Shown: positions 348-56,595 of the stretch, in pieces | Layout: each line of letters starts with the position of its first letter | Position numbering within the stretch: position 1 is the stretch's first letter | Assembly: GCA_013414765.1 (NCBI GenBank) | Contig: CP058708.1 | Coordinates: 2,971,553-3,035,552, forward strand | Length of the DNA stretch: 64,000 nucleotides | Direction: 5' to 3' | DNA from: Candidatus Accumulibacter cognatus | Lineage (GTDB): Bacteria > Pseudomonadota > Gammaproteobacteria > Burkholderiales > Rhodocyclaceae | Program-made: the position numbers and the translations under genes | The notes under the pieces: generated by a model | The model's database searches: none | Seen by the model: the letters and a program-made list of their open reading frames with translations, nothing else | Told to the model about the DNA's origin: nothing

Positions 348-386
348 TCTCTTCAATTCACACCCCATCAGGAATCAGGAATCCAC

Positions 387-890: not shown

Positions 891-906
891 TCTCCGAAAG
901 GAAACG

Positions 907-2837: not shown

Positions 2838-2838
2838 A

Positions 2839-3411: not shown

Positions 3412-3412
3412 T
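3407..3412 (+). promoter_or_regulatory. Possible -10 box just upstream of the RNB nuclease start
   Basis: A perfect TATAAT overlaps the stop codon of the preceding gene and lies seven bases before the ATG at 3420. If it is used, the message would be leaderless or nearly so. No convincing -35 is found at 16-18 bases upstream. Confidence 0.25.
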
Positions 3413-3419
3413 CGCTGCA

Positions 3420-5342
3420 ATGCATGTTCTATTCGAAGAAGAGGGGGCTTTCAAGGCAGCCACCATCGTGACCGACAACGAGACCTCGTTGCAGGTCGAA
3501 ACGGCCTCGGGCAAGCGCAGCAAAATCAAGTCGGCAAACGTCCTGTTGCGCTACAGCGAACCGGCAGCGACGGGACTGCTCGATCAGGCGGAAGCACTGG
3601 CTGCCGATATCGAGCCCGAATTTCTATGGGAGTGTGTCGGTGACGGCGAGTTTTCTTTTTCTGATTTTGCCAACGAGTACTTCGGTCACATCGCCACGGC
3701 GCTTGAAGCCACTGCGCTCCTTCTGGCCCTGCATGCGGCGCCGATCTATTTTCATCGCAAGGGCAAAGGTCGTTTCCGCAAGGCACCGACCGAGATTCTC
3801 CAGGCCGCCCTTGCCGGCCTCGAAAGGAAACGCCAGCAAGCCCTGACCATCGAGCGCATGGTTGGAGAACTCAAGGCCTTCTCCTTGCCCCCCGAGTTTC
3901 TGCCCATCCTCAACCAATTGCTCTACAAGCCTGACCGCAACCGCAACGAGACCAAGGCACTCGAAGCAGCGTGTAGTGAAACGGGTTTGTCGGCAGTACA
4001 GTTGCTCGAAAAGTGTGGCGGCATCCGCTCGGCACACGACTATCACCTGAAGCATTTCCTGCTTGAACAGTTCCCGCACGGTACGGCTTTCCCGGTGACG
4101 GCGGCACCGGCACTACCGGTCGGTCTACCGCGTGCCGATGTGCAGGCCTTTTCGATCGACGACGCGACAACGACCGAAATCGACGACGCGTTTTCCCTGC
4201 AGACACTGCCTGGCCTGGGCTGGCGGGTCGGAATCCACATTGCAGCACCGTCGCTGGGTATCGCACCGGGGTCGCCACTGGACCACATCGCGCGCGCCAG
4301 GCTGTCGACGGTCTACCTGCCGGGCAGCAAGATCACCATGCTGCCGGATACGGTACTGGATTCCTTCACCCTTTCGAGTGGCCGCGACTGCCCCGCCATT
4401 TCGCTGTATCTCACGGTCAGCCCCGAGTTCGAGATTACGGCCCACGAGTCGCGCATCGAAATCGTTCCTGTGGTCGCCAACCTACGCCACCACGACATCG
4501 AACCGCTGTTCAACGAGCAGACGATTGCCGATGGTCTGCCCGAGTTTCCCTTCCATGATCAACTGCTGACCCTCTGGCACCTCGCCAACGCCTGCGAAGG
4601 CCGACGCGGCAAGCCTTCGGCGGTGCAAGGCCATTTTGACTACAACTTCCGGGTCGACGGCGATCTCGGAGATGCCGAGGCCTGCCGAATCGAGATTTCC
4701 GCACGCAAGCGTGGCAGCCCGCTCGACAAATTGGTCGCCGAGTTGATGATTGTTGCCAACAGCACCTGGGGCGGGCTGCTGGCAGCACGGGGCGTGCCCG
4801 CAATCTATCGCGTACAGACCGGCGGCAAGGTGCGCATGAGCACTTCGCCGCAGCCGCACGAGGGCCTCGGGGTAAAACAGTACGCCTGGTCGTCGTCGCC
4901 GCTGCGTCGTTATGTCGACCTGATCAACCAGTGGCAGTTGATTGCCAGCCTGCGGGGAGAGACACCACCGTTCGCGGCACGTTCCGACACCCTCTTCACC
5001 GCAATGCGCGATTTCGAGCTGACCTACAGCGCCTACGCCGAATTTCAGCGCAACATGGAACGGTACTGGTGCCTGCGCTGGCTGCGCCAACAAGGAATCG
5101 ACCGCATCGGGGCAACGATCGGCCGCGAGAATCTCGCCAGGCTTGACCATCTGCCGCTGGTACAGCGAGTACCCTCGGCACCGGAACTCAAACCCGGCCA
5201 GCGTATCCGACTGCGTATCGAGTCGGTCGACTATCTGACCCTGGCACTGGGCTGTCGCTATCTCGAAACCGTCGCCGTGGCAGGAGCCCGTATCGAGAAT
5301 GCCGCAGAGGAGGCTCCGGAGGTCCTGGAGGCGGTCGATTGA
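3420..5342 (+). CDS. RNB-domain ribonuclease (RNase II/R family)
   Basis: The 640-residue protein carries the RNB exoribonuclease core from about residue 235. The metal-binding cluster is AFSIDDATTTEIDDAFS, followed by a family-like LPDTVLDSFTLSSGRDCPAIS and RVQTGGKVRMSTSPQPH. The enzyme degrades single-stranded RNA 3' to 5'. The N-terminal 230 residues are not the usual two cold-shock domains of RNase R; this shorter architecture is common in betaproteobacterial RNB proteins. A short S1-like end (LKPGQRIRLRIESVDYLTLALGC) closes the protein. No Shine-Dalgarno is evident before the ATG. The tonB-type gene follows directly. Confidence 0.9.
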   Translation: MHVLFEEEGAFKAATIVTDNETSLQVETASGKRSKIKSANVLLRYSEPAATGLLDQAEALAADIEPEFLWECVGDGEFSFSDFANEYFGHIATALEATALLLALHAAPIYFHRKGKGRFRKAPTEILQAALAGLERKRQQALTIERMVGELKAFSLPPEFLPILNQLLYKPDRNRNETKALEAACSETGLSAVQLLEKCGGIRSAHDYHLKHFLLEQFPHGTAFPVTAAPALPVGLPRADVQAFSIDDATTTEIDDAFSLQTLPGLGWRVGIHIAAPSLGIAPGSPLDHIARARLSTVYLPGSKITMLPDTVLDSFTLSSGRDCPAISLYLTVSPEFEITAHESRIEIVPVVANLRHHDIEPLFNEQTIADGLPEFPFHDQLLTLWHLANACEGRRGKPSAVQGHFDYNFRVDGDLGDAEACRIEISARKRGSPLDKLVAELMIVANSTWGGLLAARGVPAIYRVQTGGKVRMSTSPQPHEGLGVKQYAWSSSPLRRYVDLINQWQLIASLRGETPPFAARSDTLFTAMRDFELTYSAYAEFQRNMERYWCLRWLRQQGIDRIGATIGRENLARLDHLPLVQRVPSAPELKPGQRIRLRIESVDYLTLALGCRYLETVAVAGARIENAAEEAPEVLEAVD

Positions 5343-43485: not shown

Positions 43486-43758
43486 TCACACCCGCAAACG
43501 GCTGACCGCCACCGATTCGATGCCGCTGTCCGGCGTCAACGTAAAGGCGAATTCGTGCCGGCGGAGCGCGCCCAGGTCGTACATGCGCTTGTCAGCGGGG
43601 GGCAGTCAGCAAATCCCCGCACTTGAGGATGTGCTCTGCGTTTCCTCAATCGCCGCGAAATCAAACTCCTGCAACAGCTCGCCTGCCGAGAAGCAGCGCA
43701 CCAATCGTGGATTCGGCATCTGTCGGAAGAAATCGCGGGTCGAGTAGTGGCTGGTCAT
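43486..43758 (-). pseudogene. Internally deleted remnant of an unknown island gene
   Basis: ATG 43758 opens MTSHYSTRDFFRQMPNPRLV, an N-terminus I associate with long uncharacterised proteins of mobile islands. The frame stops after 50 codons at 43606. Just beyond, another minus-strand frame reads LPPADKRMYDLGALRRHEF and then FTLTPDSGIESVAVSRLRV, ending at 43486, which resembles the C-terminal part of the same kind of protein. A large internal deletion would account for both. Function unknown. Confidence 0.45.
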
Positions 43759-43814
43759 GTCTCACTTCCATGGGACCGAACATGTCATGAATTTGGATTG
43801 TGCCGGACTTTCCG

Positions 43815-43839
43815 GTACATTACCGTACTTCCGCAGTAC
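43815..43839. promoter_or_regulatory. Probable operator of the RHH gene (three GTAC boxes)
   Basis: GTAC occurs at 43815, 43825 and 43836, 10 and 11 bases apart, on one face of the helix. The cluster is 23-47 bases before the RHH start. Palindromic boxes at this spacing suit cooperative binding by ribbon-helix-helix dimers, so autoregulation is likely. Confidence 0.4.
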
Positions 43840-43861
43840 AAGCGCCACACAAGGAGAAACC

Positions 43862-44098
43862 ATGGCTCCCGGCAAGACAGCCATCTTGAGTCTTCGCATC
43901 GAACCCGGTCTGAAGGAAGCACTGCGCGCCGCCGCCGAACAGGAACACCGCAGCATCGCCAACATGGTGGAAGTGATGATCCGCGAGTATTGCGGGCGGA
44001 ACAGCGTCGCCCTTGCCGAACAACCTGCACCCATCTACAGCAAGCAGTCTCGCGCAGCCGACGAGACAAAATCGCCAAGAACCAAGAAAGACGCATGA
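43862..44098 (+). CDS. Ribbon-helix-helix DNA-binding protein
   Basis: The 78-residue protein starts at ATG 43862 after AAGGAG. Residues about 8-45 form an Arc/CopG-type ribbon-helix-helix: AILSLRIEPGLKEALRAAA then EQEHRSIANMVEVMIREYC. The Lys/Arg/Thr-rich C-terminus is probably disordered. Such proteins serve as antitoxins or as autorepressors of island genes. Its stop overlaps the ATG of a truncated partner gene (44095), suggesting a two-gene unit before IS insertion. Confidence 0.8.
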   Translation: MAPGKTAILSLRIEPGLKEALRAAAEQEHRSIANMVEVMIREYCGRNSVALAEQPAPIYSKQSRAADETKSPRTKKDA

Positions 44099-44190
44099 AC
44101 ACCAAGGAAGTCATCGACCGGATCTTCAAGGAACCCGGCGTCCAGTTTGAACTGAGAGAGGTGGCCCCGGAAATTCGGACAGGAGGATAA
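44095..44190 (+). pseudogene. Truncated partner of the RHH gene
   Basis: ATG 44095 overlaps the RHH stop (ATGA). The frame encodes MNTKEVIDRIFKEPGVQFEL plus two or three more native residues and then enters the left end of the IS3-family element at 44162, stopping at 44190. The missing remainder is not found on the other side of the IS, where hsdM sequence begins. It is too short to name; it could be a toxin or the first gene of the modification operon. Confidence 0.6.
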
Positions 44191-44246: not shown

Positions 44247-44552
44247 ATGACAAGAAGGACGAGACGGAACCACACACCGGCATTCAAGGCACAAGTGTCC
44301 CTGGCGGCGCTGAAGAGCGACAAGACGCTAGCGGAGCTGGCGCAGCAGTATGACCTTCACCCGAATCAGATCACGGACTGGAAGCGGCAACTGACGGAGC
44401 GTGCGGTGCAGGTTTTTGGGGACACCGGCAGCCCGACGAACAGCGATCCTGACCTGACGAAGCTGCACGCCAAGATCGGCCAGTTGACGCTGGAAAACGA
44501 TTTTTTAGAACATGCGCTCACCCAGGCGGGCCTGCTGAGCGCAAGACGATGA
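44247..44552 (+). CDS. IS3-family transposase OrfA
   Basis: The 101-residue protein is the helix-turn-helix and leucine-zipper subunit of IS3 elements. RRNHTPAFKAQVSLAALKSD and LAELAQQYDLHPNQITDWKR form the HTH_Tnp_1 domain; LHAKIGQLTLENDFLEHAL is the zipper. Its stop overlaps the OrfB start as ATGA; many IS3 elements instead fuse the two by -1 frameshifting, and a TTTTTT run at about 44499 is the only slippery stretch seen. Confidence 0.93.
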   Translation: MTRRTRRNHTPAFKAQVSLAALKSDKTLAELAQQYDLHPNQITDWKRQLTERAVQVFGDTGSPTNSDPDLTKLHAKIGQLTLENDFLEHALTQAGLLSARR

Positions 44553-45382
44553 TTGACCGCAACCACAAGCTCCCCGTATCGCATCAGTGTCCCCTGCTGG
44601 GGCTGGCGCGTTCGACCGCCTACTACACGCCCCGCGAGGTCTCAGCGGAGGACTTGGCGCTGATGCGCCGGATAGACGAGTTACATCTTGATCACCCGTT
44701 CGCCGGCGCCCGCATGTTGCGCGATCTACTCCGCCCCGAGGGCTTCGAGGCCGGGCGCAAGCACATCGGCACCCTGATGGCGCGCATGGGGATCGAAGCC
44801 CTCTATCGGAAGCCCCACACCTCTCGTCGGCAGCGGGGGGATGAAATCCATCCCTACCTCCTGCGCGGCCTCGCGATCGAGCGGCCCAATCAAGCGTGGG
44901 CGGCGGACATCACCTACATCCCGATGCGCCGAGGCTTTCTCTACCTGTTCGCCGTGATCGACGGGTTCTCGCGGCGGGTCCTTGCCTGGCGGCTTTCCAA
45001 CACCTTGACGACCGACTTCTGTCTGGACGCGGTGCGGGAAGCCATCCACCGCCACGGCTGCCCGGAGATCTTCAACACTGATCAGGGTGGCCAATTCACC
45101 AGCGGCGAATTCACCGGTTTGCTCAAGGCGCACGACATCCGGATCAGTATGGACGGCAAGGGGTCCTGGCGGGACAACGTCTTCGTCGAGCGCCTGTGGA
45201 AAAGCGTCAAGTACGAAGAGGGGTATCTCAAGGCCTATGACAACGTCGCCGATGCGAAAGCCAACCTGGCCACGTATCTGCGTTTCTACAACGAGCGACG
45301 ACCGCATCGTTCCCGGGAGGGCAAGACGCCGGACGTTGCCTACTTCGTGGCGCTCGCGTCGGCAACCCCAGGAGCGGCGTAA
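44549..45382 (+). CDS. IS3-family transposase OrfB (integrase core)
   Basis: The 277-residue protein has an HTH_21-type start (LALMRRIDELHLDHPFAGARM). The retroviral-type integrase core is complete: first Asp in AWAADITYIPMRRGFLYLF, second Asp in EIFNTDQGGQFTSGEFTG and the Glu in GSWRDNVFVERLWKSVKYEE. A YLRFYNERRPHRSREGKTPD ending is typical. No frameshift or stop interrupts it, so the element may still transpose. Confidence 0.94.
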   Translation: MIDRNHKLPVSHQCPLLGLARSTAYYTPREVSAEDLALMRRIDELHLDHPFAGARMLRDLLRPEGFEAGRKHIGTLMARMGIEALYRKPHTSRRQRGDEIHPYLLRGLAIERPNQAWAADITYIPMRRGFLYLFAVIDGFSRRVLAWRLSNTLTTDFCLDAVREAIHRHGCPEIFNTDQGGQFTSGEFTGLLKAHDIRISMDGKGSWRDNVFVERLWKSVKYEEGYLKAYDNVADAKANLATYLRFYNERRPHRSREGKTPDVAYFVALASATPGAA

Positions 45383-45623: not shown

Positions 45624-47014
45624 CCTCTGTCTCCGGAAGGGAAACCTTACCGCCAAGCCAATTCCGCCCACCGACCCACTTACTGACGACAGCAAGGCTT
45701 GGGAGTATTTCGACGAGCTGAAGTTCGACGTGATCCTCGCCAATCCACCTCGCCGGCGAGATGAAAGACCGCAAAATGCTCGCACGCTACGAGCTGGCGA
45801 AGCCCGCACTGAAGCGCGCCGGCGATGACAAGCAGCCGAAGGAAGAGCGCGACGTACTCTTCATCGAGCGCATCCTGAAAATGCTCAAACCCGGCGGGCG
45901 TGCCGCCATCGTCCTGCCGCAGGGCAAGTTCAACAATTCCTCGCTGGCCTTCATCCGCGAGTGGATTCTCAAGAAGGCGCGGCTGCTGGCGGTCGTCGGC
46001 CTGCACCCGAACACCTTCAAGCCGCATACCGGCACCAAGACCTCGGTGCTGTTCGTCCAGAAATACACGCCGGAACAGCTCGCCCGGATTGCGCAGGTCC
46101 ATGACCAAGTCGCCGGCGCCTGCCCGGATTACGAAGCGCAGATCAAGGCGCTGCTGGCGGCCCATGATGCGGCGGTCGACGTGCCCGATGAAACCATCCC
46201 CGAAGCGGTGGCCGACCTGATCGCCGAAACCTTCGGCGAACCGGAAGCGGACGAAGCGGCCAACGGCAACGGGGACGAGGAAAACGGCGAAGGCGGCTAC
46301 GAGGATGTGGCCACTGCCGACCAGGACCGCATCGCCGCCGCCGAAGAAAGGCTGCACGCCCTCAAGGCCGCGCTCGTCAAGGCCAGGCAGCGGCTGATCA
46401 ACCTCGACAGCGATCTCGAAGCGCTCGCGCTCAAGCAGTCGCAGGAAATCGACGCCTGCACGACGCAATGGAGCGGCGAAAAGAGCGCGCTTCGCCACCA
46501 GATCCAGGAAGTCCGCCAGCGCTATCGAATCAGCGTCCAGGAGATGAAGGAAGTGCAGAAAGCGCAGCAGCGAGTCATCAAGGTCGAGATCAAGGGGCTG
46601 GAGAAACAGATTCCGCACGCCGAGAAGGCGCTGCAACTGCTCAGCAATCGCGGACGGCTGCAATTGCTGCTGGCCGATGATGAACTGATCGGCACGCTCA
46701 AGGAACGCTGGATCGCCGCCGAAGTCGCCAAGCAACTCGACTACCCGATTTTCATGGCGGTCAGCGAGCGCGGCGGCAAGGACAATTCCGGGGACTACAA
46801 ACACCTGCTGGATGAGCAAGGCAGCCTCGTCGAATTCCCCGATGGTCATCCGCAGGAAGGGCAACTGATCGTCGATCAGGATCTGGTCAATTACGACTTG
46901 CGCGCTGAAGACCTCGCCGACGCGGCCAGGATTCCCGACGAACAATTGTGTGTGGCGGAGGCATTCGTTCGCTTCGCTCAGGCGCAGAAGTTTCGCTTCT
47001 GGAGGGGCGAGTAA
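45624..47014 (+). pseudogene. hsdM: Type I N6-adenine methyltransferase subunit HsdM, truncated and frameshifted
   Basis: Coding resemblance begins exactly at the IS3 right end (PLTDDSKAWEYFDELKFDVILANPP). Methyltransferase motif I and the whole N-terminal part are missing. In motif IV the expected NPPF is broken: two bases are lacking after CCACC at about 45750, and the rest continues in another frame (AGEMKDRKMLARYELAKPAL, RDVLFIERILKMLKPGGRAAIVLPQG, VVGLHPNTFKPHTGTKTSVL). A long coiled-coil insert occupies the middle of the remaining frame. The TAA overlaps the hsdS start. Catalysis should be lost. Confidence 0.85.
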
Positions 47015-48366
47015 TGGCGGTCTGGAGCACTGTCGATGTTTCCGAACTAGGGCATGCGCAACGTATAGAAGCCGACTATTACCGGCCGCACTATCTCGAA
47101 GTTTCTGCGCGACTGGAGGCAGTCAAGTCGGTCCCATTGACGCGACATCTTGGGTATCTGACTGATGGTACGCACGTAACACCAAATTATGTGCCGCAGG
47201 GCGTCCCATTTCTCTCGTCAAGTGATATTGACCCGTTCATTGTTTCTCCGGTCATCGAGAAATTCATTTCTGAGGCGGAGCATTTACGCCTGCGCCATTG
47301 CCAACCCGATGCAGGCGACATTCTTATGTCGAAATCCGGTCGAATCGGATCGTGTGCGGTAGTACCGGCGTCAATCAAGAAGGGGGACTGGAATATCTAC
47401 GAAGGCGTTGCACTACTTCGGGTCGACGGAGTCGAGCCGCACTACGTTGCTGCCTTTCTGAACTCAAAATACGGCCATTCCCAGATCCGACGCGAGTTGA
47501 AAGGCGTTGCCCAACCGCATCTCCATTTAGAAGACATACGAAGACTGAAGCTCTTTGTCCCGGAACCTCACGAAATGGCTGAGGTATCGGCACTGGTGCT
47601 TGGCGGCACGGGACGAGCACAATGTGCTCATCGTCTTTTTCAAGACGCGCTGGCTGCTCTCGAAACTGAGCTTGGGCTGGACAAACTGACCATCCAGAAA
47701 ACCGTGGGCTACGCCACTCAGTTAAGCAATATTGAGGTGTCTCGGAGATTCGACCCAGAGCATTACTTTCCAGCATTCAGCACTTTCTGCGCCGGATTGC
47801 CATCTCGTGTCGCCCTTTCACCGCTAGTGAATCACCTTGAGTTCTGTCAGCGTGGAAAGCAGCCGGTTTATGCAAAGACTGGCCTGCCGGTAATCAACTC
47901 AAAACACGTTCAGCCGAACCGGGTCATACTGGAAGGCAACCGTTTTGCCTTGGCTAATCCGGTCGATGATCTTCAGATTCGCGCTGGCGACACGCTCATC
48001 AACGGAACCGGGCGCGGAACCATAGGACGGGCAGCGCCTTACATCAGTGACACGCCTGCCGTGGCGGACAATCACGTCACCATCCTCCGATCGAGTAGCC
48101 TGGACCCGGCTTATTTGTCCCTCTATCTCAATAGTGCGGCGGGGCAGATGCAGGTCGAGATGCATCAACGGGGTACGTCGGGGCAACTTGAGCTGTACCC
48201 GTTCGATATTCGAAAGTTTCTCGTCTGGCCCGCGCCTGGCGAATTGCAGCGAGACCTGCGCGATCTTTACGACAAGGCGACAAAAGCAGAGCGGGAATCC
48301 AAGCGCTTGCTTGATCAAGCCAAGACCCGGGTCGAACAACTCATCGAAGCCGCCGTCCAGCCATGA
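47014..48366 (+). CDS. hsdS: Type I restriction-modification specificity subunit HsdS
   Basis: The 450-residue protein starts at ATG 47014, sharing one base with the hsdM stop. Two target-recognition halves are visible. The first (about 1-210) includes GVPFLSSSDIDPF and DILMSKSGRIGSCAVV. The second (about 235-445) includes GLPVINSKHVQPN and DTLINGTGRGTIGRAA. Each half ends in a coiled-coil spacer; the last is DKATKAERESKRLLDQAKTRVEQLI. HsdS chooses the DNA sequence modified by HsdM. It overlaps rhuM by four bases. Base composition is lower in GC than its neighbours, as is usual for recognition domains. Confidence 0.9.
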   Translation: MAVWSTVDVSELGHAQRIEADYYRPHYLEVSARLEAVKSVPLTRHLGYLTDGTHVTPNYVPQGVPFLSSSDIDPFIVSPVIEKFISEAEHLRLRHCQPDAGDILMSKSGRIGSCAVVPASIKKGDWNIYEGVALLRVDGVEPHYVAAFLNSKYGHSQIRRELKGVAQPHLHLEDIRRLKLFVPEPHEMAEVSALVLGGTGRAQCAHRLFQDALAALETELGLDKLTIQKTVGYATQLSNIEVSRRFDPEHYFPAFSTFCAGLPSRVALSPLVNHLEFCQRGKQPVYAKTGLPVINSKHVQPNRVILEGNRFALANPVDDLQIRAGDTLINGTGRGTIGRAAPYISDTPAVADNHVTILRSSSLDPAYLSLYLNSAAGQMQVEMHQRGTSGQLELYPFDIRKFLVWPAPGELQRDLRDLYDKATKAERESKRLLDQAKTRVEQLIEAAVQP

Positions 48367-49406
48367 GCGACGTGTTTCCCGACCCCGCCGCACCCGGCAA
48401 AGGCCAGTTCCTGGTCTATGAAGCCGAAGACGGTCGCATCAAGATCGACGTGCGGCTGGACGAGGAAACGCTCTGGCTGCCGCAGGCGCAACTGGCCGAG
48501 CTGTTCCAGACCAGCCAGCAGAACATCAGCCTGCATATCCAGCACATCTACGAGGAAGGCGAACTGCTGCCGGAGGCAACTCACAAGAAATACTTGTTGG
48601 TTCGCGCCGAGGGCGGGCGCGAGGTCAAGCGTCTCGTCGACCACTACAACCTCGACATGATCATCTCGGTCGGCTACCGGGTGAAGAGCCATGTCGCGAC
48701 GCGCTTTCGCATCTGGGCGACGCAGCGCCTCAAGGAATACATCGTCAAGGGTTTTACGCTCGACGACGAGCGGCTGAAGAACCCGCAGCAGCCCTTCGAC
48801 TACTTCGAAGAGCTGACCCGCCGCATCCAGGACATCCGCACCTCGGAGCGGCGTTTCTACCAGAAGATCACCGACATCTACGCGACCAGCATCGACTACG
48901 ACCCGACGCTGGAGATCAGCCTGACCTTCTTCAAGACCGTGCAGAACAAGATGCACTGGGCGATCACCGGCCAGACCGCCGCCGAGATCGTGCATGCGCG
49001 CGCCGATGCCGACAAGCCCCACATGGGCCTGACTACCTGGCGCGGCGCCAGGGTACGCAAGCAGGATGTCGGTATCGCCAAGAACTATCTGGCGGAAGAC
49101 GAACTGCGCGCCCTGAACAACCTGGCCGAACAATATCTGATCTTCGCCGAAGGCCAGGCGATGCGCCGCATCCCCATGCACATGCGCGACTGGATCAGGA
49201 AGCTCGACGGTTTTCTGAACATCAACGACCGCGACATCCTGACCCACGCCGGAAAAATCTCGCACGAGATGGCGCAGCAGCGAGCCGAGGCCGAATACGA
49301 GCAATATCACCGGCGGCGGATCGCCGAGCAATCGCAGGCCGTCAGCGACTTCGACCGCATGGCCAGGCAATTGACGAACAGCGAACGAGGCAAAAAGAAA
49401 CCATGA
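48363..49406 (+). CDS. rhuM: RhuM-family protein
   Basis: The 347-residue protein belongs to the RhuM family, named for a Salmonella pathogenicity-island gene and often found inside type I restriction operons. Visible parts are LDEETLWLPQAQLAELFQTS, NISLHIQHIYEEGEL, DMIISVGYRVKSHVATRFRI and WATQRLKEYIVKGF. A C-terminal part follows (HARADADKPHMGLTTWRGAR). The function is unproven; the N-terminal part looks like a DNA-binding KilA/BRO-like module. ATGA overlaps link it to hsdS and to the next small ORF. Confidence 0.9.
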   Translation: MSDVFPDPAAPGKGQFLVYEAEDGRIKIDVRLDEETLWLPQAQLAELFQTSQQNISLHIQHIYEEGELLPEATHKKYLLVRAEGGREVKRLVDHYNLDMIISVGYRVKSHVATRFRIWATQRLKEYIVKGFTLDDERLKNPQQPFDYFEELTRRIQDIRTSERRFYQKITDIYATSIDYDPTLEISLTFFKTVQNKMHWAITGQTAAEIVHARADADKPHMGLTTWRGARVRKQDVGIAKNYLAEDELRALNNLAEQYLIFAEGQAMRRIPMHMRDWIRKLDGFLNINDRDILTHAGKISHEMAQQRAEAEYEQYHRRRIAEQSQAVSDFDRMARQLTNSERGKKKP

Positions 49407-49597
49407 ACATGACGCCCGACGACGGCCGGCTGCTGGCGGATTTGTGCGAGCAGCATGGCGTGAGCGCCGACAAGGTGCGAAAGCTGCTCGATGCCGTGCG
49501 CGACTACGAATTCAAGGACCGGCGAACCGGGGTGTATGACGCACTGCGCGAGATTCTGAAGAGCAAGCCGGCTACCAAAACGGAGCGCCGGGCATGA
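49403..49597 (+). CDS. Small helical protein of the modification operon (64 aa)
   Basis: ATG 49403 overlaps the rhuM stop by four bases and its own stop overlaps the next start. The protein (GRLLADLCEQHGVSADKVRKL, FKDRRTGVYDALREIL) is helical with a possible helix-turn-helix. I recall small proteins of this sort beside DndD-like and DNA-modification genes, but I cannot name a characterised homologue. The double ATG at 49403/49409 leaves the start slightly open. Confidence 0.75.
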   Translation: MNMTPDDGRLLADLCEQHGVSADKVRKLLDAVRDYEFKDRRTGVYDALREILKSKPATKTERRA

Positions 49598-49854
49598 GCG
49601 ACGGTGTGGACAGGGATCGTTTCGTCAAGGACCCGGGCCTGCTGGTCGAACTGTGCCGAAAGGTGATCGACGAACTCGATTCCGGCGCCTGCGACTCCGG
49701 CGTTGCCGAACGTGAGGCGCAACTGCGCGAGATCGCGAAGACCATCGAGCGACTGGAAAAGGCCCAGTGGGTGAGGTATCAAATGACTCAGGACGGTACC
49801 CTGCGCGCCGATTCACCCTACGGGATTTGGGTGCTGAGGGAGAGCCCCCGATGA
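49594..49854 (+). CDS. Small coiled-coil protein of the modification operon (86 aa)
   Basis: The ATG overlaps the previous stop and the TGA overlaps the dndD-like start, both as ATGA. Residues 10-60 look like one helical hairpin (LLVELCRKVIDELDSG, VAEREAQLREIAKTIERLEKA). The end, QDGTLRADSPYGIWVLRESP, is different in character. No family recognised. The unbroken chain of overlaps suggests fixed stoichiometry with its neighbours. Confidence 0.72.
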   Translation: MSDGVDRDRFVKDPGLLVELCRKVIDELDSGACDSGVAEREAQLREIAKTIERLEKAQWVRYQMTQDGTLRADSPYGIWVLRESPR

Positions 49855-51854
49855 AATTCCGCAAGCTCACCCTCGAAAATTACAAGTCCTTCCAGTTCCC
49901 GACGGAGATCGTTTTCCCGATCGGCGACGATGGTCGCAGCATCTTCCTGATCGGCGGCATGAACGGCGCGGGCAAGACCTCGATCATGGAGGCAGTGACG
50001 TTCTGCCTGTATGGCGGCAAGGTCGACGACATTTACCGCAACATCAACCGGCGCGAGAAGGCCAAGGGCAATGCCAACGTGGCCTTCGAGATCGTCATCG
50101 TGATGGATGACGGTTCGGAGCTGGTGGTCAAGCGCTCCTGGACGGCCGGCGCGGTCAGCGAGCCGCGGGCGCGCGATCTGACTGAACGGCTGGTGGTCGT
50201 GCGCGACGGCAAGCGCGTGTCGGTGCAAAACCAGGAAATCTGGCAGGACTTCATCCGCGCGGCGATCCCGCCGGGCATCACGCAGTTCTTCTTCTTCGAC
50301 GGCGAGAAGACTCAGCAGATTGCCGCCGACGATCATTCGGAGGTCCGCCTGAAATCATCGCTGGAGGCCGCGCTGGGCATCCAGTACATCAACCGGCTGG
50401 CCAGCGACATCGTCTATATCAAGCAGCAGGAGCGGCAAGGCTTTGTCGAGATTTCGGACGCAGACCTGGAATTCAAGCAGAGCGAGCTGAAGCGCGAGAA
50501 GAGCAAGCGGGCGCGCAAACATCAGGAGCGAGACGGCTTGCGCGTCGAACTGGACGGCTTCAAGGCCCAACTGGGCGATGCCAGGAAGCGCTTCGAGGCG
50601 TCCTTCCACGCCGCGCCGGAATCGCGCGAGGCGATGCGCGAGCAGGAGAAGAAGCGCGTGCTCGCGGCCAACCGGCTGGCGCAGGTGGACAGCGAGATTC
50701 GCAACCTCTGCGAAAAAGCCTTGCCATTCAGCATTGCGGGCAAGCTGTTTGGCGGCATCCGGCGGCAGATTGAAGCCGAGCGCGAATCGGCCAGCGGTGA
50801 GGCGATCAAGGAGAACGCCGCCTTGCTGGCGAAGCGCATCGTGCGCGTGGTCGAGGAACCAGAACCCATCTACCGGGAGAAATTGTCGGCCGAGCGCATG
50901 GCCGAGCTGGAACGGCGCATCTTCCGCATGCTCAAGGAAGGCGACCACAATGCGGAGGTGACGAAGGTTCTCGACCTATCCGATCGCGACGCGGCGCGGG
51001 TCCTGAACCGTATGGAAGCCCTGGAAAACAGCGATGTCTTCCTGCTCAAGCCATTGCTGGAAGAAGCCGACAGTCTCAAGGTGCAGCTCCGGCAACTGGA
51101 AGGTGTCGTTGGCCAGGTGGGTGCGTTGTCACCCACCGAACGTGACCTGTTCGACGAATTGCAATCGGTGATGGAGAGCTGTTCGACGCAGATCGGGCGG
51201 AAGACCGAACAACTGCGACTGGTCGAGGAAGATGTTCTGACCCTCGACAAGCGCATTGCCGCCATCGAGGTGGAGATCGAGAAGCTCTACGAGAAGCACA
51301 ACGTCTCGAAGGAAAAGGTCGACTTCATCGAGGAGTGCGATGCCATCGCCAGCGTGCTGAACCAGTTCATTGTCCGCCTGCGCAAGAGCAAGGTGCATGT
51401 GCTGCAGGAGAAGACCTTCGAGATGTACCGGCTTCTTTCCAGCCGCAGCGGCCTGATCAAGGACATCACCATCGACGACAAGACCTACGAGGTCCGGATC
51501 ACCGACCGCAACGGACACGAGATTCGCAAGTCGTCGATGGCGGCTGGCGAAAAGGAAGTGTTTGCGATTTCGCTGCTGTGGGGGCTGGCGCAGACCAGCG
51601 AACTCAAGCTGCCGATCATCATCGACACCCCCCTATCGCGCCTCGACAGCACGCATCGCGACAACATCGTCAACCACTACTTCCCGAATGCCGGCGAGCA
51701 GGTGGTGATCCTTTCGACCGACACGGAGATCGATACCAGCTACTACCGATCCCTCAAGCCTCGCCTCAGCGGCGCGGCGTGTCTTGAATTTGATCAGAGG
51801 CAAGAGCTGACGACGTTCCGGCAAGGGTATTTCTGGGAGACCCGCCATGGCTGA
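49851..51854 (+). CDS. DndD-like SMC/Rad50-type ATPase
   Basis: The 667-residue protein starts at ATG 49851, not at the in-frame upstream codons. It has an N-terminal ABC-type P-loop (IFLIGGMNGAGKTSIMEAVTF, residues 32-52), a DndD-like FFFFDGEKTQQIA near 150 and long coiled-coils (about 215-310 and 430-520). The C-terminal signature/Walker B region is MAAGEKEVFAISLLWGLAQ and LPIIIDTPLSRLDSTHRDNI. DndD is the DNA-nicking/ATPase partner in phosphorothioate modification. No dndA, dndB or dndC is present here. Its end overlaps the next gene by eight bases. Confidence 0.85.
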   Translation: MKFRKLTLENYKSFQFPTEIVFPIGDDGRSIFLIGGMNGAGKTSIMEAVTFCLYGGKVDDIYRNINRREKAKGNANVAFEIVIVMDDGSELVVKRSWTAGAVSEPRARDLTERLVVVRDGKRVSVQNQEIWQDFIRAAIPPGITQFFFFDGEKTQQIAADDHSEVRLKSSLEAALGIQYINRLASDIVYIKQQERQGFVEISDADLEFKQSELKREKSKRARKHQERDGLRVELDGFKAQLGDARKRFEASFHAAPESREAMREQEKKRVLAANRLAQVDSEIRNLCEKALPFSIAGKLFGGIRRQIEAERESASGEAIKENAALLAKRIVRVVEEPEPIYREKLSAERMAELERRIFRMLKEGDHNAEVTKVLDLSDRDAARVLNRMEALENSDVFLLKPLLEEADSLKVQLRQLEGVVGQVGALSPTERDLFDELQSVMESCSTQIGRKTEQLRLVEEDVLTLDKRIAAIEVEIEKLYEKHNVSKEKVDFIEECDAIASVLNQFIVRLRKSKVHVLQEKTFEMYRLLSSRSGLIKDITIDDKTYEVRITDRNGHEIRKSSMAAGEKEVFAISLLWGLAQTSELKLPIIIDTPLSRLDSTHRDNIVNHYFPNAGEQVVILSTDTEIDTSYYRSLKPRLSGAACLEFDQRQELTTFRQGYFWETRHG

Positions 51855-53376
51855 CCGCCTTTACACCTCAAGCGAGGCCGATGAGGTCCTGAGTGCGCTG
51901 CGTTTTGAAACGAAGCTGGAGAAAGCGACGCTGGCGCGGATCGCCTTCGCACTTTCGCTGGTCAAGGACGGCGCAGGCGTTGCACCCAGTCCGAGTTTCA
52001 GCGGCGGCGAGATGAAGCGGCCGACCTTCGTCGGCGAGGACGAGGTATTTCTGCGTACCCTGGTCGCACAGACCTACGGCAAGCGCGACTTCAGCGAGGA
52101 CGAGTTCTTCTCCAACCGCTCGGTCATCAAGAACCATATTGACAGCGGCGCGGCCTGGTTGGCGAGATTGTTTGAGGAAGCCGGCCGCAGTGGCGAGGCG
52201 CTGATTCGGCGGCTGCTGGACGAAGTGGAATTCGCCGGACGCCGCGAGCATTTGGGTAGTGGCCTGGACATCTTCATCGGTCGGACGCTGTTGCAGCGAA
52301 CCGAGTTGGTCATGGAACTGAACAACACGACCAGGCATGCCAACTCGCACCTGGCCATCATGGGCATGCCCGGAGTCGGCAAGACGCAATTTCTGCTCAA
52401 GATACTCGCCGACATCCGCATCCAGTCGAATTACCAGACCCACTTCATCTACTTCGACTACAAGGGCGACGTGGTGGACAACGCCCGCTTTCTCGAAGTG
52501 GCGCGAGTGCAGCCCTTCCGGTTGCTACAAGGCGGGCAGAACCTGCCCATCAATCCTTTCATCTTGCCGGCCTACGACGAGCAGACCATCAATGTCTCGG
52601 CGCGCGAGAAGGCCGAGAGTTTTGCGTCGATCAACGGTAAGCTCGGCCCCGTACAAAAAGGGGCATTGACCGAAGCGATACGCGCCGCCTATGCCAAACG
52701 TACTGGATCGGCTTCACCCTACCCGGACTTTCCCGATGTCCTTGAAGTCGCCGCGGCGGCGTATGAAGAAGACGGCAAGAGAGACGACAGCCTGATCGAA
52801 GTGCTGCGCGACCTCTCCGACTTCGACCTCTTCTGGCGCCATGGCAACGAGGCCGCGCCCATGGACCGGGTAGCGAACCGCACGATGTTGATTGACGTGC
52901 ATGCGATGCCGGTGCTCAAGGAATTGGTCGCCTATCTGGTGATCGAGCGGCTCTACAAGGAAATGGCAACGCTGCCCGACAGCCCGGTCACCGAAGGTCG
53001 GCGCACCATTCGGACCATTCTGGTCATCGACGAAGCGCACAACTATCTCAGCCAGAAGAACATGTTCCTTCAGCGCATCATCCGCGAAGGGCGTTCAAAA
53101 GGGGTGGTCGTGTTTTTCGCCAGCCAATCGCCCAACGACTACCAGCAGAAATTCTTCAACTTCCAGCAGTTGCTCAGTTTCGCTTACATTTTCCAGTGCG
53201 ATGGCGTAGCGGCGGGATCGGTCCAGGACATTCTTGGTTGCAGTGCCAAAACGGCGAGGGACTTGCAGACGGAGATCGCTCGTTTGGAACCATGGCAGGT
53301 CATCGCGCGCAGTCAGGAGAAGACCGAGGAGTTCGTGAAGTTCACCGCCGAGGCGTTCTACAAGACCTACGCATGA
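51847..53376 (+). CDS. DndE-like domain fused to HerA/FtsK-type ATPase
   Basis: The 509-residue protein begins with a DndE-like region (LYTSSEADEVLSALRFETKL, LARIAFALSLVKDG, residues 4-42 and on to about 110). A HerA-type DNA translocase core follows: Walker A in IMGMPGVGKTQFLLKIL (about 172-188), FIYFDYKGDVVDNARF, Walker B in ILVIDEAHNYLSQ (about 390) and the arginine region IIREGRSKGVVVFFASQSP. Fusing a DndE nicked-DNA-binding domain to the motor suggests a restriction or remodelling role coupled to the DndD-like ATPase. It is the last gene of the operon. Confidence 0.82.
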   Translation: MADRLYTSSEADEVLSALRFETKLEKATLARIAFALSLVKDGAGVAPSPSFSGGEMKRPTFVGEDEVFLRTLVAQTYGKRDFSEDEFFSNRSVIKNHIDSGAAWLARLFEEAGRSGEALIRRLLDEVEFAGRREHLGSGLDIFIGRTLLQRTELVMELNNTTRHANSHLAIMGMPGVGKTQFLLKILADIRIQSNYQTHFIYFDYKGDVVDNARFLEVARVQPFRLLQGGQNLPINPFILPAYDEQTINVSAREKAESFASINGKLGPVQKGALTEAIRAAYAKRTGSASPYPDFPDVLEVAAAAYEEDGKRDDSLIEVLRDLSDFDLFWRHGNEAAPMDRVANRTMLIDVHAMPVLKELVAYLVIERLYKEMATLPDSPVTEGRRTIRTILVIDEAHNYLSQKNMFLQRIIREGRSKGVVVFFASQSPNDYQQKFFNFQQLLSFAYIFQCDGVAAGSVQDILGCSAKTARDLQTEIARLEPWQVIARSQEKTEEFVKFTAEAFYKTYA

Positions 53377-53424: not shown

Positions 53425-53685
53425 CTACGCGGCCCTGATGATCGGTATGGCTGCACCGCTCACCTTCAGCCGCTCCAGGTAGTCGGCCCACTGCTGCATC
53501 ATGGTCTGGCGCTCTTTCAGGAACCTGGTCCGGTTGTAGGCCGTGCCCAGGGCATCAGGGGCCTGATGTGCAAGCTGATGCCCGATGACATCGGGCTTGA
53601 TGTGCAACTCCTCGTGCAGGATCGTTCGCGCCATCGCGCGAAATCCGTGCCCGGTGATTTCGGTCTTGGTGTCGTAGCCCATCCA
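53425..53685 (-). pseudogene. Tyrosine integrase, C-terminal fragment
   Basis: The fragment encodes the catalytic end of a P4-type integrase: MGYDTKTEITGHGFRAMART (Arg in HGFR), VIGHQLAHQAPDALGTAYNR (His and nucleophile Tyr) and a short tail. Upstream coding is cut at 53685 by the second copy of the 2427-bp IS. Deleting the IS and one ATCCA copy rejoins it in frame to 56113-56387 (NAALRW-MGYDTKTE). Confidence 0.88.
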
Positions 53686-56112
53686 CAGACAACCTGATCT
53701 CGGCGCCATGACGTTTGCACGAGTGGCATCACGAATCCGCAGTAGTTCATACGGTTAGCGCGCTGACAAAGCACTGGCGCGGGTTTATGGCGAGGGGCGT
53801 GGCAGATATTGCGAAGATACCGAAAATTGGCGATAGTCCGGTTTTTTGGCCGGCGCCACGCCGATCTTGCGGGAGAATCGGATGCCCCAACTGCTGTTGC
53901 CGATCTTTCCGGATGCCGTGACGCCGATCAAGGACCTGCTGTCTGTCGGGAAGCAGGACGGGCGAGTCGTGTATTTCCACGGCGTCCTGCCGGTGTTTAG
54001 TCATGGGGAAGAGGATTTGGCGACCTTCCGGATGATTACGGCGCAGTTTATCGCGCAGGGTCATCTTCGGGTGGTGGACGTGTCGCGCGCCTTCGGGGTG
54101 CCGGCGTTGAGTGTCAAGCGAGCGTTGAAGCGCTATCGGCAAGAGGGGCCGAAAGGGTTCTACGTTCCGCCGCGGCGCCGGGGTCCGGCGGTGCTGACGG
54201 CAGAGGTGTTGCAGCAGGCGCAGGCCCTGTTCGACGGCGGACAGACGGTCCCGAGCGTTGCGACAGAACTGGGGATCAAGAGCGACACCCTGTCGAAGGC
54301 GGTGCGTGCCGGACGGCTGCATGTTCCGGTGGGGAAAGGGGTCTGCGCGGTCGTCTCGAGCACCAAGAGCGAGCGGAGCGCACTCGACAGCGCGGCCCCG
54401 ATGGGGGTTGGGGCGAGCAACGTGGTTGCCCGGGTGGCGGCCAGCGTGGGCGGGCTGAATGCCGTTGCTCCGCAGTTCCAGGCGGCCGTTGATGTACCGC
54501 GTGGCGGGGTGCTGTTCGCGCTGCCTGCCTTATTGGCGGTCGGATTGCTCGACGGGTCGGAGGGTCTTCCGCTGCCAGCGGGTTACTACGGGATCGACAG
54601 TCTGTTGATGTTGATTGCCTTCATGGCCCTGGCGCGACTGGAATCGGTCGAGTCTCTGCGCTCGTGTGCGCCAGGCGAGTGGGGCAAGTTACTGGGTCTC
54701 GATCGGATTCCCGAAGTGCGCACCCTGCGCGAGAAGATAGGGCTCCTGAGCCAGGGCGATCATGCCGAGAAATGGAGTGCCGACCTGTGTCGGCGCTGGA
54801 TGGCGGCGGCGCCGGAACAAGCGGGCATCCTCTACGTCGACGCGCATGTGCGGGTGTATTACGGCGAGCAGACCCAATTGCCGCGCCACTACATCGCGCG
54901 GCAGCGGCTGTGCCAGCGTGCGACCGCCGATTACTGGGTCAACGCGATCGACGGGCAGCCCTTCTTCCGGGTCACGCAATCCGTCGACCCGGGCCTGATC
55001 AAGGTTCTTGAAGGCGAGATCCTGCCTCGGCTGGAACGGGACATCCCGGGCCAGCCGAGCGCCGAAGCGCTCGCGGCCGACCCGCTGCGCCATCGCTTCA
55101 CCCTGGTCTTCGATCGCGAAGGCTATAGCCCAGAGTTGTTCAAGCGTCTGAAGGCGCGTCGCGTTGCCTGCCTCTCCTATCGCAAGTACGCCGGCGACGA
55201 TTGGTCGCCCGAGGAATTCGTCGACGCCACGATCGAACTTCGCCGTGGCCAGCAGGTACGCATGCGACTCGCCGAACGGGGAACGCTGCTCGGCGGCGTG
55301 GTGTGGGTACGCGAGATACGCAAGGTCTGTGACACCGGTCGCCAGGTCGCCCTGATCAGCACGGATTACCAATCTGGCATAGGGCGCCTGGCGGCCACCC
55401 TGTTCGCCAGGTGGTCTCAGGAAAACTTCTTCAAGTATGCGCGTGAACACTTTGCCCTGGACCGCCTGGTGGATTATCAGATGGAAGAAATTCCTGATAC
55501 CGCACGCGTTGTCAACCCAGCTCGCCGAACCCTCGACGGCCAGGTTCGCGCGCTGACCAGCAAGCTCAGCCGCAGGCTCGCCCAATTCGGCGCGCTTAAC
55601 CTCAACGAGACGATTGAACCAGCGAAAGTCGAGGCCTTTGTCGCGAAAAAAGCCGCTGCCCACGACGAGATCGAACATCTGCAGGACGAACTCAAGGCCC
55701 TGAAGGAACAACGTAAAGAAACCCCCTCCCATCTCGCCCTCAAGGATTTGCCGGAAGAACAGCAGTTCCGCCGGCTGAGCACCCACAGCAAGCAGCTACT
55801 CGACACGCTCAAGATGATTGCCTATCGCGCGGAAACGGCCATGGCCAACGTCCTGGCACCGCTTCTCTCGCGCCCGGACGAGGCACGCAGCTTGCTGCGC
55901 GCGATCTACACGACCGAAGCGGACTTGCTGCCCGATCCTAACGCCGGCACCCTGACCGTACGCCTCCACCACATGGCCAATGGCGTGTCGGACCGCGCCG
56001 TCCGCAAACTCTGTGACGAGTTGAACTCTACCAAGACGCTCTTCCCACGCTCCAACCTCCGCCTGATTCTGCAACTCGGTACGTCGCAAAATCCGTGAGA
56101 TCAGGTTGTCTG
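53686..56112 (+). mobile_element. 2427-bp insertion sequence, copy 2
   Basis: The element has the same terminal repeats and length as copy 1, here flanked by ATCCA at 53681-53685 and 56113-56117. It interrupts the integrase gene in antisense orientation to it. The encoded proteins of the two copies are identical, so at least one transposition is recent. Different target duplications show two independent insertions. Confidence 0.96.
53882..56098 (+). CDS. Transposase of the 2427-bp IS (copy 2)
   Basis: The 738-residue protein is identical to that at 13088-15304, with the same ATG preceded by GGGAGAATCG. No stop or frameshift is present, so both copies could supply transposase. Domain content is as described for copy 1: helix-turn-helix region, probable DDE core, coiled-coil tail. 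Confidence 0.9.
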   Translation: MPQLLLPIFPDAVTPIKDLLSVGKQDGRVVYFHGVLPVFSHGEEDLATFRMITAQFIAQGHLRVVDVSRAFGVPALSVKRALKRYRQEGPKGFYVPPRRRGPAVLTAEVLQQAQALFDGGQTVPSVATELGIKSDTLSKAVRAGRLHVPVGKGVCAVVSSTKSERSALDSAAPMGVGASNVVARVAASVGGLNAVAPQFQAAVDVPRGGVLFALPALLAVGLLDGSEGLPLPAGYYGIDSLLMLIAFMALARLESVESLRSCAPGEWGKLLGLDRIPEVRTLREKIGLLSQGDHAEKWSADLCRRWMAAAPEQAGILYVDAHVRVYYGEQTQLPRHYIARQRLCQRATADYWVNAIDGQPFFRVTQSVDPGLIKVLEGEILPRLERDIPGQPSAEALAADPLRHRFTLVFDREGYSPELFKRLKARRVACLSYRKYAGDDWSPEEFVDATIELRRGQQVRMRLAERGTLLGGVVWVREIRKVCDTGRQVALISTDYQSGIGRLAATLFARWSQENFFKYAREHFALDRLVDYQMEEIPDTARVVNPARRTLDGQVRALTSKLSRRLAQFGALNLNETIEPAKVEAFVAKKAAAHDEIEHLQDELKALKEQRKETPSHLALKDLPEEQQFRRLSTHSKQLLDTLKMIAYRAETAMANVLAPLLSRPDEARSLLRAIYTTEADLLPDPNAGTLTVRLHHMANGVSDRAVRKLCDELNSTKTLFPRSNLRLILQLGTSQNP

Positions 56113-56510: not shown

Positions 56511-56595
56511 TGGTGCCCAGGAAGGGAGTCGAACCCCCACACCTTGCGGCGGCAGGACCTAAACCTGCTGCGTCTACCAATTTCGCCACCTGGGC
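56511..56595 (-). tRNA. tRNA-Leu (anticodon UAG)
   Basis: The 85-base minus-strand gene begins GCCCAGGTGGCGAAATTGG and ends CCTGGGC-A-CCA with encoded CCA. The 7-bp acceptor stem pairs perfectly. The anticodon arm is GCAGG-TTTAGGT-CCTGC, giving UAG. The long variable arm (CGCCGCAAGGTGTG) and D-loop (TTGGTAGAC) are those of leucine tRNAs. It reads CUA-type codons. The integrase remnant begins within 125 bases of its 3' end, the usual arrangement for a tRNA-integrated element. Confidence 0.97.

Follow-up and report, generated by a model that had tools for sequence, protein, structure and literature searches.

The DndD-DndE pair has been described as the scanning core of phosphorothioation modification, and roughly half of the taxa that have Dnd carry DndB (PMC10853773). 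A DndE-HerA fusion beside a DndD-related ATPase has been noted for clade 3 Dnd systems, and for this fusion PMC10853773 cites a 2020 survey of ABC ATPases. The CxC-DndE system (PbeABCD) combines a CxC ATPase with an HKD-helicase nuclease and cytosine methylases (PMC10853773). The same paper asks whether a different modification is made by DndDE systems that lack DndC; its main text makes no mention of hsdM, hsdS, or rhuM. The tail of DndC docks on DndD, and DndC carrying L458D/E462A/R471A loses DndD binding (PMC12193691). Among restriction-modification (RM) enzymes, BsaXI is a type IIB enzyme with the composition (RM)2S (PMC11997821).

Here we describe an operon that shares DndD and the DndE-HerA fusion with clade 3 Dnd systems but has no DndC core; in its stead the operon carries hsdM-hsdS along with a possible reader gene and an accessory gene that is optional. 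Like PbeABCD, it couples a DndD-type ATPase and a DndE core to a methylase and not to sulfur chemistry, but its DndD lacks CxC, its nuclease domain is HSDR_N, and its methylase is of the N6-adenine type and comes with HsdS. It resembles type I RM systems in its HsdM-HsdS module and HsdR-type nuclease domain, and differs from them in that the nuclease is fused to M, DndD and HerA stand in the place of the helicase motor, and no separate HsdR was found (0 of 50 loci). The likeness to type IIB BsaXI lies in an RM fusion subunit (916 aa) with a separate S, although the HSDR_N part of the operon's enzyme matches no solved chain. To our knowledge, BsaXI has neither DndD nor HerA, and MADS systems have no DndD-DndE. 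MADS is approached in the MAD2-like methylase (the alignment runs from the HSDR_N region onward), the MAD5-like HsdS, and the MAD8-like HerA. We rejected MADS membership because the MAD2 and MAD5 scores (271.7 of 720 bits and 130.1 of 400 bits) are far below the NCBIfam cut-offs. Ten flanking genes at four loci gave one weak mad8 match and no match to another mad family (for one gene, among the best 25 of 54 families). We recognized no description of hsdM-hsdS with DndD and DndE-HerA in the literature that we searched; an earlier mention is possible.

The copy in the window is interrupted in hsdM

The window is the whole 64,000-nucleotide stretch of DNA that we analyzed. A first-pass annotation of it had described a run of seven genes on one strand overlapping by 1 to 8 bases. 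Our coordinates, from the open reading frame at 45761 to position 53376 on the plus strand, confirm this run, with junction overlaps of 1, 4, 4, 4, 4, and 8 bases. The first gene had been called an hsdM remnant. The remnant is real, but hsdM starts further upstream than had been thought, at about 44095, and is split around an insertion. Using HsdM of loci L013 and L015 in tblastn, we found the severed 5' end of the gene (about 20 codons) at 44095 to 44154 (+). An IS3-type element with two open reading frames (44247 to 45382, +; HTH_Tnp_1, 1.5e-7; rve, 2.6e-24) takes the place of the missing middle portion of hsdM. Coding resumes at 45631, leaving about 430 codons missing relative to L015, and the remnant (45631 to 47014, +; open reading frame 45761 to 47014) was identified by tblastn and by an N6_Mtase match (2.4e-11). 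What the remnant keeps is the C-terminal part together with the end of the methylase core, frameshifted at the NPPF motif; the methylase core is missing its beginning, and the HSDR_N nuclease domain is absent. This copy, having lost the nuclease along with a portion of the methylase, is probably inactive and so is not itself a test case.

The remaining genes follow on the plus strand. The specificity subunit gene hsdS (47014 to 48366) matched PADLOC PDLC03197 at 7e-70 and was MADS5-like at 95.2 bits (cut-off, 400); its match to Pfam Methylase_S was below the cut-off. Next come rhuM (48363 to 49406; Virulence_RhuM PF13310, 2.1e-113) and two small genes, sp1 (49403 to 49597) and small gene 2 (49594 to 49854). 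They are followed by dndD (49851 to 51854), encoding a coiled-coil ABC ATPase (TIGR03185, 371 bits; cut-off, 245.85), and by the dndE-herA fusion (51847 to 53376), which scored 38.4 bits with DndE PF08870 (cut-off, 25) and 30.6 bits, 4.5e-7, with HerA/DUF87 (cut-off, 23.2). A DndD-family ATPase is thus paired with DndE, both profiles being above their cut-offs. DndD has a Walker A motif and no CxC motif. In the fusion protein, DndE spans residues ~1 to 110 and the HerA ATPase residues ~140 to 505; the latter has its closest relative in the motor of DptH/DndH, a restriction protein (DptH 7es4, 1.4e-18).

Upstream of hsdM, a small RHH/CopG-like gene (43757 to 44098, +) may encode a regulator; its matches to RHH_5 (4.3e-4) and RHH_1 (1.2e-3) are both below the cut-off. 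Locus L009 has a gene that looks similar by eye, also 5' of hsdM. Integrase-like pieces and a tRNA-Leu gene lie near the copy in the window.

The gene set recurs without dndC or hsdR

A single genome scan yielded 50 loci. Dropping 10 with a partial dndE-herA left 40, and requiring at least 7 kb of contig upstream left 28. dndD adjoins dndE-herA in all 40 loci with a near-complete dndE-herA. With fragments counted, the 28 well-covered loci contain hsdM and hsdS, the N6 methylase and specificity subunit of the type I arrangement, in 24 each and sp1 in 27, and the gene order is the same in 24. This order is conserved across phyla, going by the hosts named in the sequence records. Four of the 28 lack hsdM and four lack hsdS; among these is L045, which has open dndD and dndE-herA. 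Five HsdR and two DndC references matched neither an hsdR nor a DndC core at any of the 50 loci, and they gave no match within the window.

We compared pairwise identities in the 15 loci left after a length rule on all five core genes excluded 35 of the 50. HsdM, DndD, and DndE-HerA identities correlate (r, 0.76 to 0.91), for which shared host ancestry is a possible cause. In a class sample of 369 genomes, relatives of HsdM with at least 72% identity occurred in 2, both with dndE-herA (at most two candidates scored per genome, among the matches listed). Three of the five genomes in that sample with a DndE-HerA relative had no HsdM match (one DndC-type locus and two short or broken ones). Sp-DndD was rejected as a common marker, as it matched in only 3 of 398 genomes of a phylum sample, 2 of them above the cut-off. 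We likewise rejected a plasmid or phage home for the operon family: the 16 plasmid and 3 phage records found were all below 60% identity, and none covered 80% of the query.

We also looked for Dnd and HsdR genes elsewhere in the hosts. The source genome, one 5.17-Mb contig, has eight hsdR matches, the nearest of the six listed lying about 207 kb before the window. Its sole DndC-profile match is sp1, and DndB gave no match in it. Dnd phosphorothioation by the source genome was rejected because the DndC core is missing. Among 43 host genomes, DndB was found in 3, on other contigs or more than 400 kb from the operon, and full DndC scored above the cut-off in 5, in none of them beside the operon. 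hsdR (TIGR00348) was unmatched in 8 of the 43, including those of L025, L037, and L041, which have intact operons. Halalkalibacter oceani (L037) and Bowmanella sp. (L041) thus combine an intact operon with no hsdR match and with only the tail of DndC. Their genomes are draft records that are not labeled as metagenome bins, so cultures may exist.

The first-pass annotation had proposed a distinct defense architecture, to be checked by searching for the order hsdM-hsdS-rhuM-small-small-dndD-dndE/herA in other genomes. We found that the order recurs, with intact hsdM in other loci, neither dndC nor hsdR found at these loci, and dndB far away or absent; dndBC and hsdR are not constant neighbors. 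These data support the operon as a distinct, recurring architecture.

HsdM carries a nuclease domain

We scanned three intact HsdM proteins and found HSDR_N (PF13588) and methylase (PF02384) domains in all of them. The D..ExK motif of HSDR_N is invariant, with D132, E149, and K151 present in 16 of 16 sequences. Mean identity is 83 to 84% in the HSDR_N and methylase parts and 32% in HsdS, whose gene adjoins hsdM or is fused with it. The best solved relative of HsdM, by way of its methylase part, is RM.BsaXI, a type IIB RM subunit about as long as HsdM; the HSDR_N part had no solved relative up to an E value of 5. Because HsdM contains a nuclease domain with an invariant D..ExK motif, HsdM-HsdS resembles type IIB enzymes, with a predicted nuclease-methylase fusion and an S subunit. 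DndD and DndE-HerA had been suggested to replace HsdR. A motor of another kind does appear to be in place, but HsdR is not wholly replaced, since its type of nuclease domain is retained, fused to HsdM.

sp1 resembles the docking tail of DndC

We found that sp1 matches Sp-DndD PF20306 (51.7 bits against a cut-off of 27.2; 9.2e-14 for the window gene), which makes it a free-standing DndC tail by homology. Comparison with the DndC tail by hhalign gave 96.4%, versus 0.4% and 0.9% for unrelated profiles; the comparison with a single DndC sequence was weak (17.8%; E, 0.0014). At two of the three published DndC mutation positions, all 22 sp1 sequences agree, with an L (L28) and an R (R41), and at the position of E462 sp1 has V in 20 of 22. 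The last DndC helix, a second published DndD contact (PMC12193691), is missing from sp1. From this homology, we predict that sp1 is a DndC tail kept as a free DndD-docking adaptor.

In distant relatives, a DndC core, a separate tail gene, DndD, and a motor protein occur in that order. The DndC core sits where hsdM-hsdS stand in the operon, upstream of the DndC tail gene. Of three plasmid records with a short DndC match that we examined for gene order, L078 and L079 have the split order and L080 (Hymenobacter) does not; in L080, DndC occurs without DndD.

Small gene 2 is internally deleted in the window, where comparison with relatives of ~211 aa shows that its 86-aa product has lost the middle; it had no profile match above the cut-off. 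The relatives end in a RAMA domain (above the cut-off, 3 of 3 tested) or an Mrr_N-like domain (below the cut-off, 4 of 4 tested), and no solved relative was found below an E value of 0.1. The domains suggest that the product is perhaps a DNA reader. The two small open reading frames of the first-pass annotation are real genes, but the docking-tail identity of the first and the possible reader identity of the second had been missed, as had the distant relatives with a DndC core. rhuM, which had been counted as an operon member, is present in the window but proved to be optional. Between hsdS and sp1, the slot is occupied by RhuM, by DarT-DarG, by a cut rhuM accompanied by DUF4258 and a YgiT finger, or by a NOV_C protein, and it is empty in the intact loci L018, L037, L041, and L048. 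The existence of intact loci with an empty slot indicates that the core is independent of the accessory gene.

Discussion

On balance, we think that the operon is an RM-like defense system built on a DndD-DndE scanning core, without phosphorothioation, in which the HerA motor drives the HSDR_N nuclease. From the parts, their order and co-inheritance, the conserved catalytic motifs, and the tail homology, we infer the following contacts, methylation, reader role, and restriction. Where the operon is intact, HsdM, with its HSDR_N and N6-adenine methylase domains, would bind and methylate a host sequence together with HsdS. DndD, tethered via DndE to the HerA motor, would scan or translocate DNA. 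sp1 would bind DndD and probably link it to HsdM-HsdS or keep it active. The Mrr_N-like/RAMA protein may read the modification state, and the motor would then activate the HSDR_N nuclease on unmodified invading DNA, with RhuM or DarTG as an optional accessory.

A less favored but serious reading is that two independent systems travel together, one a self-sufficient type IIB-like HSDR_N-HsdM with HsdS, the other a DndD/DndE-HerA system that has a separate effector. HSDR_N-methylase and HsdS pairs without DndD or DndE-HerA do exist (L096 and L098), so the nuclease may not require the motor. The relationship of the HsdM methylase part to type IIB RM.BsaXI and the retention of the Dnd half alone at L045 also fit two systems. 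We nevertheless consider this unlikely, given the gene order conserved across phyla, the finding that, in the class sample as scored above, HsdM relatives of at least 72% identity were always accompanied by dndE-herA, and the placement of hsdM-hsdS at the DndC-core position upstream of a DndC tail gene.

It is less probable still that DndD and DndE-HerA serve modification only, scanning host DNA and loading the methylase while an unlinked nuclease restricts. Such a role would agree with the description of DndDE as a modification scanning core (PMC10853773) and with the resemblance of sp1 to a piece of a modification enzyme, but the operon itself contains a conserved nuclease motif and its HerA most resembles the motor found in DptH/DndH, a restriction protein. 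Abortive-type defense, in which sensing of an invader by the complex would lead the accessory gene (RhuM, DarTG, or another) to kill or stall the cell, would fit the varied contents of the slot; we hold it to be quite improbable, as four intact loci have no slot gene. Chance assembly of island genes, suggested by the IS-interrupted copy near integrase-like pieces and tRNA-Leu, we rejected outright because the gene set recurs in unrelated hosts and keeps its order in 24 of the 28 well-covered loci.

Within the preferred reading of an RM-like system on a DndD-DndE core, we propose more tentatively that DndD-DndE may be a general chassis. In this scenario, the sulfur enzyme was severed at the docking tail and gave way to a type IIB-like nuclease-methylase with HsdS; a methylation-guided nuclease would then be driven by an SMC-like ATPase together with a HerA motor. 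If this is true, DndD-DndE is not bound to sulfur chemistry, and modification enzymes would be swappable via a short docking tail. The predicted adaptor sp1 keeps residues known to matter for DndC-DndD binding. Here, the question of another modification in DndDE systems lacking DndC becomes directly testable, with N6-methyladenine at an HsdS-defined site as the predicted mark.

The operon is interrupted in hsdM

The operon is a plus-strand run of seven genes, namely, the end of hsdM, hsdS, rhuM, two small genes (49403-49597 and 49594-49854), dndD, and a dndE-herA fusion, with junction overlaps of 1, 4, 4, 4, 4, and 8 bases. We found that hsdM is broken. Its initial ~20 codons lie at about 44095-44154, an IS3-type element (44247-45382) separates them from the remainder, and the gene restarts at 45631, frameshifted at the NPPF motif. 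With the related locus L015 as a reference, ~430 codons are missing; judged against L018, a second related locus, these would encode the nuclease domain together with the start of the methylase. Of the second small gene, the first 56 and last ~28 codons survive and the middle is gone. The other five genes (hsdS, rhuM, the first small gene, dndD, and dndE-herA) have open frames. Compared to L015, dN/dS was 0.04 (dndE-herA), 0.08 (dndD), 0.12 (hsdM remnant and rhuM alike), 0.22 (first small gene), and 0.35 (hsdS), the values for dndE-herA and hsdS being rough because dS exceeds 1 for both. These ratios mostly reflect selection that preceded the break and are not evidence of present function.

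Two minus-strand pieces resembling one integrase gene flank a Transposase_29 element (53846-56098). The piece at 56028-56387 matches Phage_int_M under the cutoff (1e-4), and the piece at 53425-53709 was judged by eye and lacks a Pfam integrase match. A tRNA-Leu gene (56511-56595) adjoins this stretch. The operon may lie in an island at tRNA-Leu whose integrase was disrupted by a transposon.

The gene set recurs in other genomes

We scanned genome contigs once using three aligned DndE-HerA proteins, which yielded 50 loci; the scan relied on two short peptide patterns, and distant relatives escape it. Operon parts were placed by tblastn (E 1e-4). DndE-HerA was near complete in 40 of the 50 loci, and dndD adjoined it in all 40. 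Of these 40, 36 have more than 2.5 kb upstream, and the first small gene was present in 35 of those. Among the 28 with at least 7 kb upstream, we found hsdM and hsdS in 24 each (fragments counted), the first small gene in 27, a small gene of the second kind in 19, and rhuM or darG in 19. All five core genes passed the length rule in 15 of the 50 loci; contig ends cut many of the others.

L026, L045, L049, and L053 lack hsdM, and L028, L045, L049, and L053 lack hsdS. The dndE-herA frames are broken in L049 and L053, part of dndD is lost in L028, and hsdS is reduced to a scrap in L026. L045 is a true exception, with dndD and dndE-herA open and neither hsdM nor hsdS. Upstream of the decayed dndD and dndE-herA of L049, genes at 362-5107 resemble type III restriction Mod and Res by eye.

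Record titles include Accumulibacter, Thauera, Nitrosomonas, Thiocapsa, Desulfobacteraceae, Methylotuvimicrobium, Bowmanella, Halalkalibacter, and Bacillota bins; because many loci come from metagenome bins, host names may be wrong. A DndE-HerA relative occurs in 5 of the 369 genomes of the class sample, and the system is therefore rare. The genome carrying L042 (G398) has two hsdM copies, 72% identical to that of L018, on different contigs, each of which also has a DndC-tail match; the system may be present twice there.

HsdR and DndC are absent from the loci

The first-pass annotation had suggested that DndD and the DndE-HerA motor replace HsdR in an operon without hsdR or dndABC. The absence of neighboring hsdR and dndC held: by tblastn, none of the 50 loci matched five HsdR or two DndC references. 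Full DndC was over the cutoff in 5 of 43 host genomes, always away from the operon (>400 kb in G376, about 346 kb in G410, and on other contigs in G369, G383, and G401). In 20 further genomes, the window's own included, the sole DndC match was to its last 50 to 90 positions, and in all three cases placed by coordinates (G000, G388, and G393) this match was the first small gene. DndB was over the cutoff in 3 of the 43 host genomes and had no match over the cutoff in the window's own genome. As expected for a common gene, hsdR was over the cutoff in 30 of 43 host genomes; the absence of hsdR close to the operon rests on tblastn of the 50 loci, not on this whole-genome search. No hsdR match was found in 8 of the 43, including three that carry intact operons (L025, L037, and L041).

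HsdM carries a putative nuclease domain

Intact HsdM (~920 amino acids) has an N-terminal HSDR_N_2 domain (PF13588; E values of 1.2e-21 in L018, 1.6e-19 in L037, and 1.4e-22 in L024) followed by an N6 methylase. All 16 aligned proteins share D132, E149, and K151 (L018 numbering), which we take to be a PD-(D/E)XK pattern. The nuclease and methylase parts have mean identities of 83 to 84% across 15 intact loci. In L024 and L050, the methylase is fused to half an HsdS. The best solved relative of HsdM is the type IIB RM subunit RM.BsaXI, reached via the methylase part; the HSDR_N part searched alone matched no solved chain. Mean identity is 32% for HsdS versus 74 to 78% for HsdM, DndD, and DndE-HerA, and HsdS is the variable part, as expected for a specificity subunit. 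In Bowmanella, a type IV (Mrr-like) restriction gene (L041:2788-3702; PADLOC, 4.4e-79) lies directly upstream of hsdM, and the DndC-type locus L012 has a nearby gene from the same cluster.

The first small protein resembles the DndC tail

An alignment of 22 first small proteins (Sp-DndD, PF20306) matched the tail of eight DndC proteins with 96.4% probability (E 1.1e-9 for the pair); two unrelated profiles scored 0.4% and 0.9%. Against a single DndC sequence, the match was weak (17.8%, E 0.0014). Carried over from that single-sequence alignment, it spans residues 433-484 of Escherichia coli H240 DndC. AlphaFold3 models and pull-downs reported in 2025 (PMC12193691) have DndC residues 433-482 binding the DndD globular domain and the last DndC helix binding coiled coil 1, with L458D/E462A/R471A breaking DndC-DndD binding. 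H240 DndC carries L, E, and R at these three positions. All 22 small-protein sequences retain L458 and R471; at the E462 position, 20 have V and 2 have E. The small protein lacks the last DndC helix, and therefore only the first DndD contact is predicted to be possible.

The Sp-DndD model also matches two longer frames that contain a PP-loop motif, one in L089 (503 amino acids, over the cutoff) and one in L090 (461 amino acids, under it); both are probably full-length DndC. Sp-DndD thus looks like a DndC domain too, and not just a free-standing small protein.

The second small protein and the accessory slot vary

In the structure model of the L015 relative of the second small protein (mean pLDDT, 72.8; pTM, 0.42), the N-terminal half is helical and confident, followed by helix-helix-strand-strand-helix at low confidence. 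Mrr_N matched below the cutoff in 4 of 4 proteins tested, and RAMA matched above it in 3 of 3 tested of the other form. We read the alignment as suggesting that the N-terminal half is shared and that the tail comes in two forms.

The slot between hsdS and the first small gene holds RhuM, DarT-DarG, a shortened rhuM with DUF4258 and a YgiT finger, or a NOV_C protein (L042), or is empty. In L042, a DUF1016/YhcG gene separates hsdM and hsdS. A gene family of up to 260 amino acids sits beside rhuM in three slots (L019:5243-6022, L020:5941-6648, and L021:5627); both members scanned lacked a Pfam match.

Distant relatives pair DndD with a DndC core

Mean identity is 67% for the DndE part and 83% for the HerA part, which is closest to DptH/DndH. 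DndD has no CxC motif. Four distant relatives (DndD 24 to 26% identical), L012, L077 (Methylorubrum extorquens AM1), L078, and L079, have a tail-less DndC core, a small gene, DndD, and a motor protein. DndE is over the cutoff in L012, the DndE-HerA match begins at residue 30 in L077, L078 has an FtsK-like motor in which DndE was not found, and L079 has an SspH-like motor. In single scans, Sp-DndD is over the cutoff in the L078 small gene and weak elsewhere; the joint profile of these small genes matches the DndC tail at 96.7%, and the tail is therefore a separate gene in DndC-type systems. By gene order, hsdM-hsdS occupy the DndC-core position in window-type operons. Any sequence of evolutionary events between the two types is one that we infer. 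Directly after the DndC-type operon of L079, on an Aureimonas plasmid, lies a gene annotated as a TusA-family sulfurtransferase (12911-13147), possibly a sulfur donor.

A combined marking and cutting system is the most likely reading

One alternative is that a type IIB-like enzyme and DndD/DndE-HerA are independent systems. In its favor, stand-alone pairs of HSDR_N-methylase and HsdS are confirmed in L096 and L098, without DndD or DndE-HerA; their methylases are 48% and 44% identical to HsdM. Proteins of ~205 amino acids, alike by eye, follow these pairs (L096:5686-6303 and L098:4221-4835), and that of L096 has no Pfam match. Of the 369 genomes in the class sample, 2 have an HsdM relative at 72% identity or higher, and both also carry DndE-HerA; HsdM had no match in the remaining three of the five genomes that have a DndE-HerA relative. 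Pairwise identities correlate at 0.76 for HsdM-DndD, 0.80 for HsdM-DndE-HerA, and 0.91 for DndD-DndE-HerA, and at 0.33 to 0.65 where HsdS or the first small protein is involved, a measure that cannot tell cotransfer from common descent.

Published work describes DndDE as a core recruiting other modules, notes a HerA-DndE fusion beside a DndD-related ATPase, and places cytosine methylases with the CxC branch (PMC10853773). A term search of that paper's main text found no mention of HsdM, HsdS, or RhuM; the gene order may already appear in earlier literature.

We consider a single combined system most likely, one whose contacts and activities are all predicted and whose homologies, gene order, and conserved residues are observed. 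HsdM-HsdS would put a mark on host sites, DndD and DndE-HerA would scan or pull DNA, the DndC tail (the first small protein) would dock on DndD, the second small protein would report the mark, and the HSDR_N nuclease would cut unmarked DNA.
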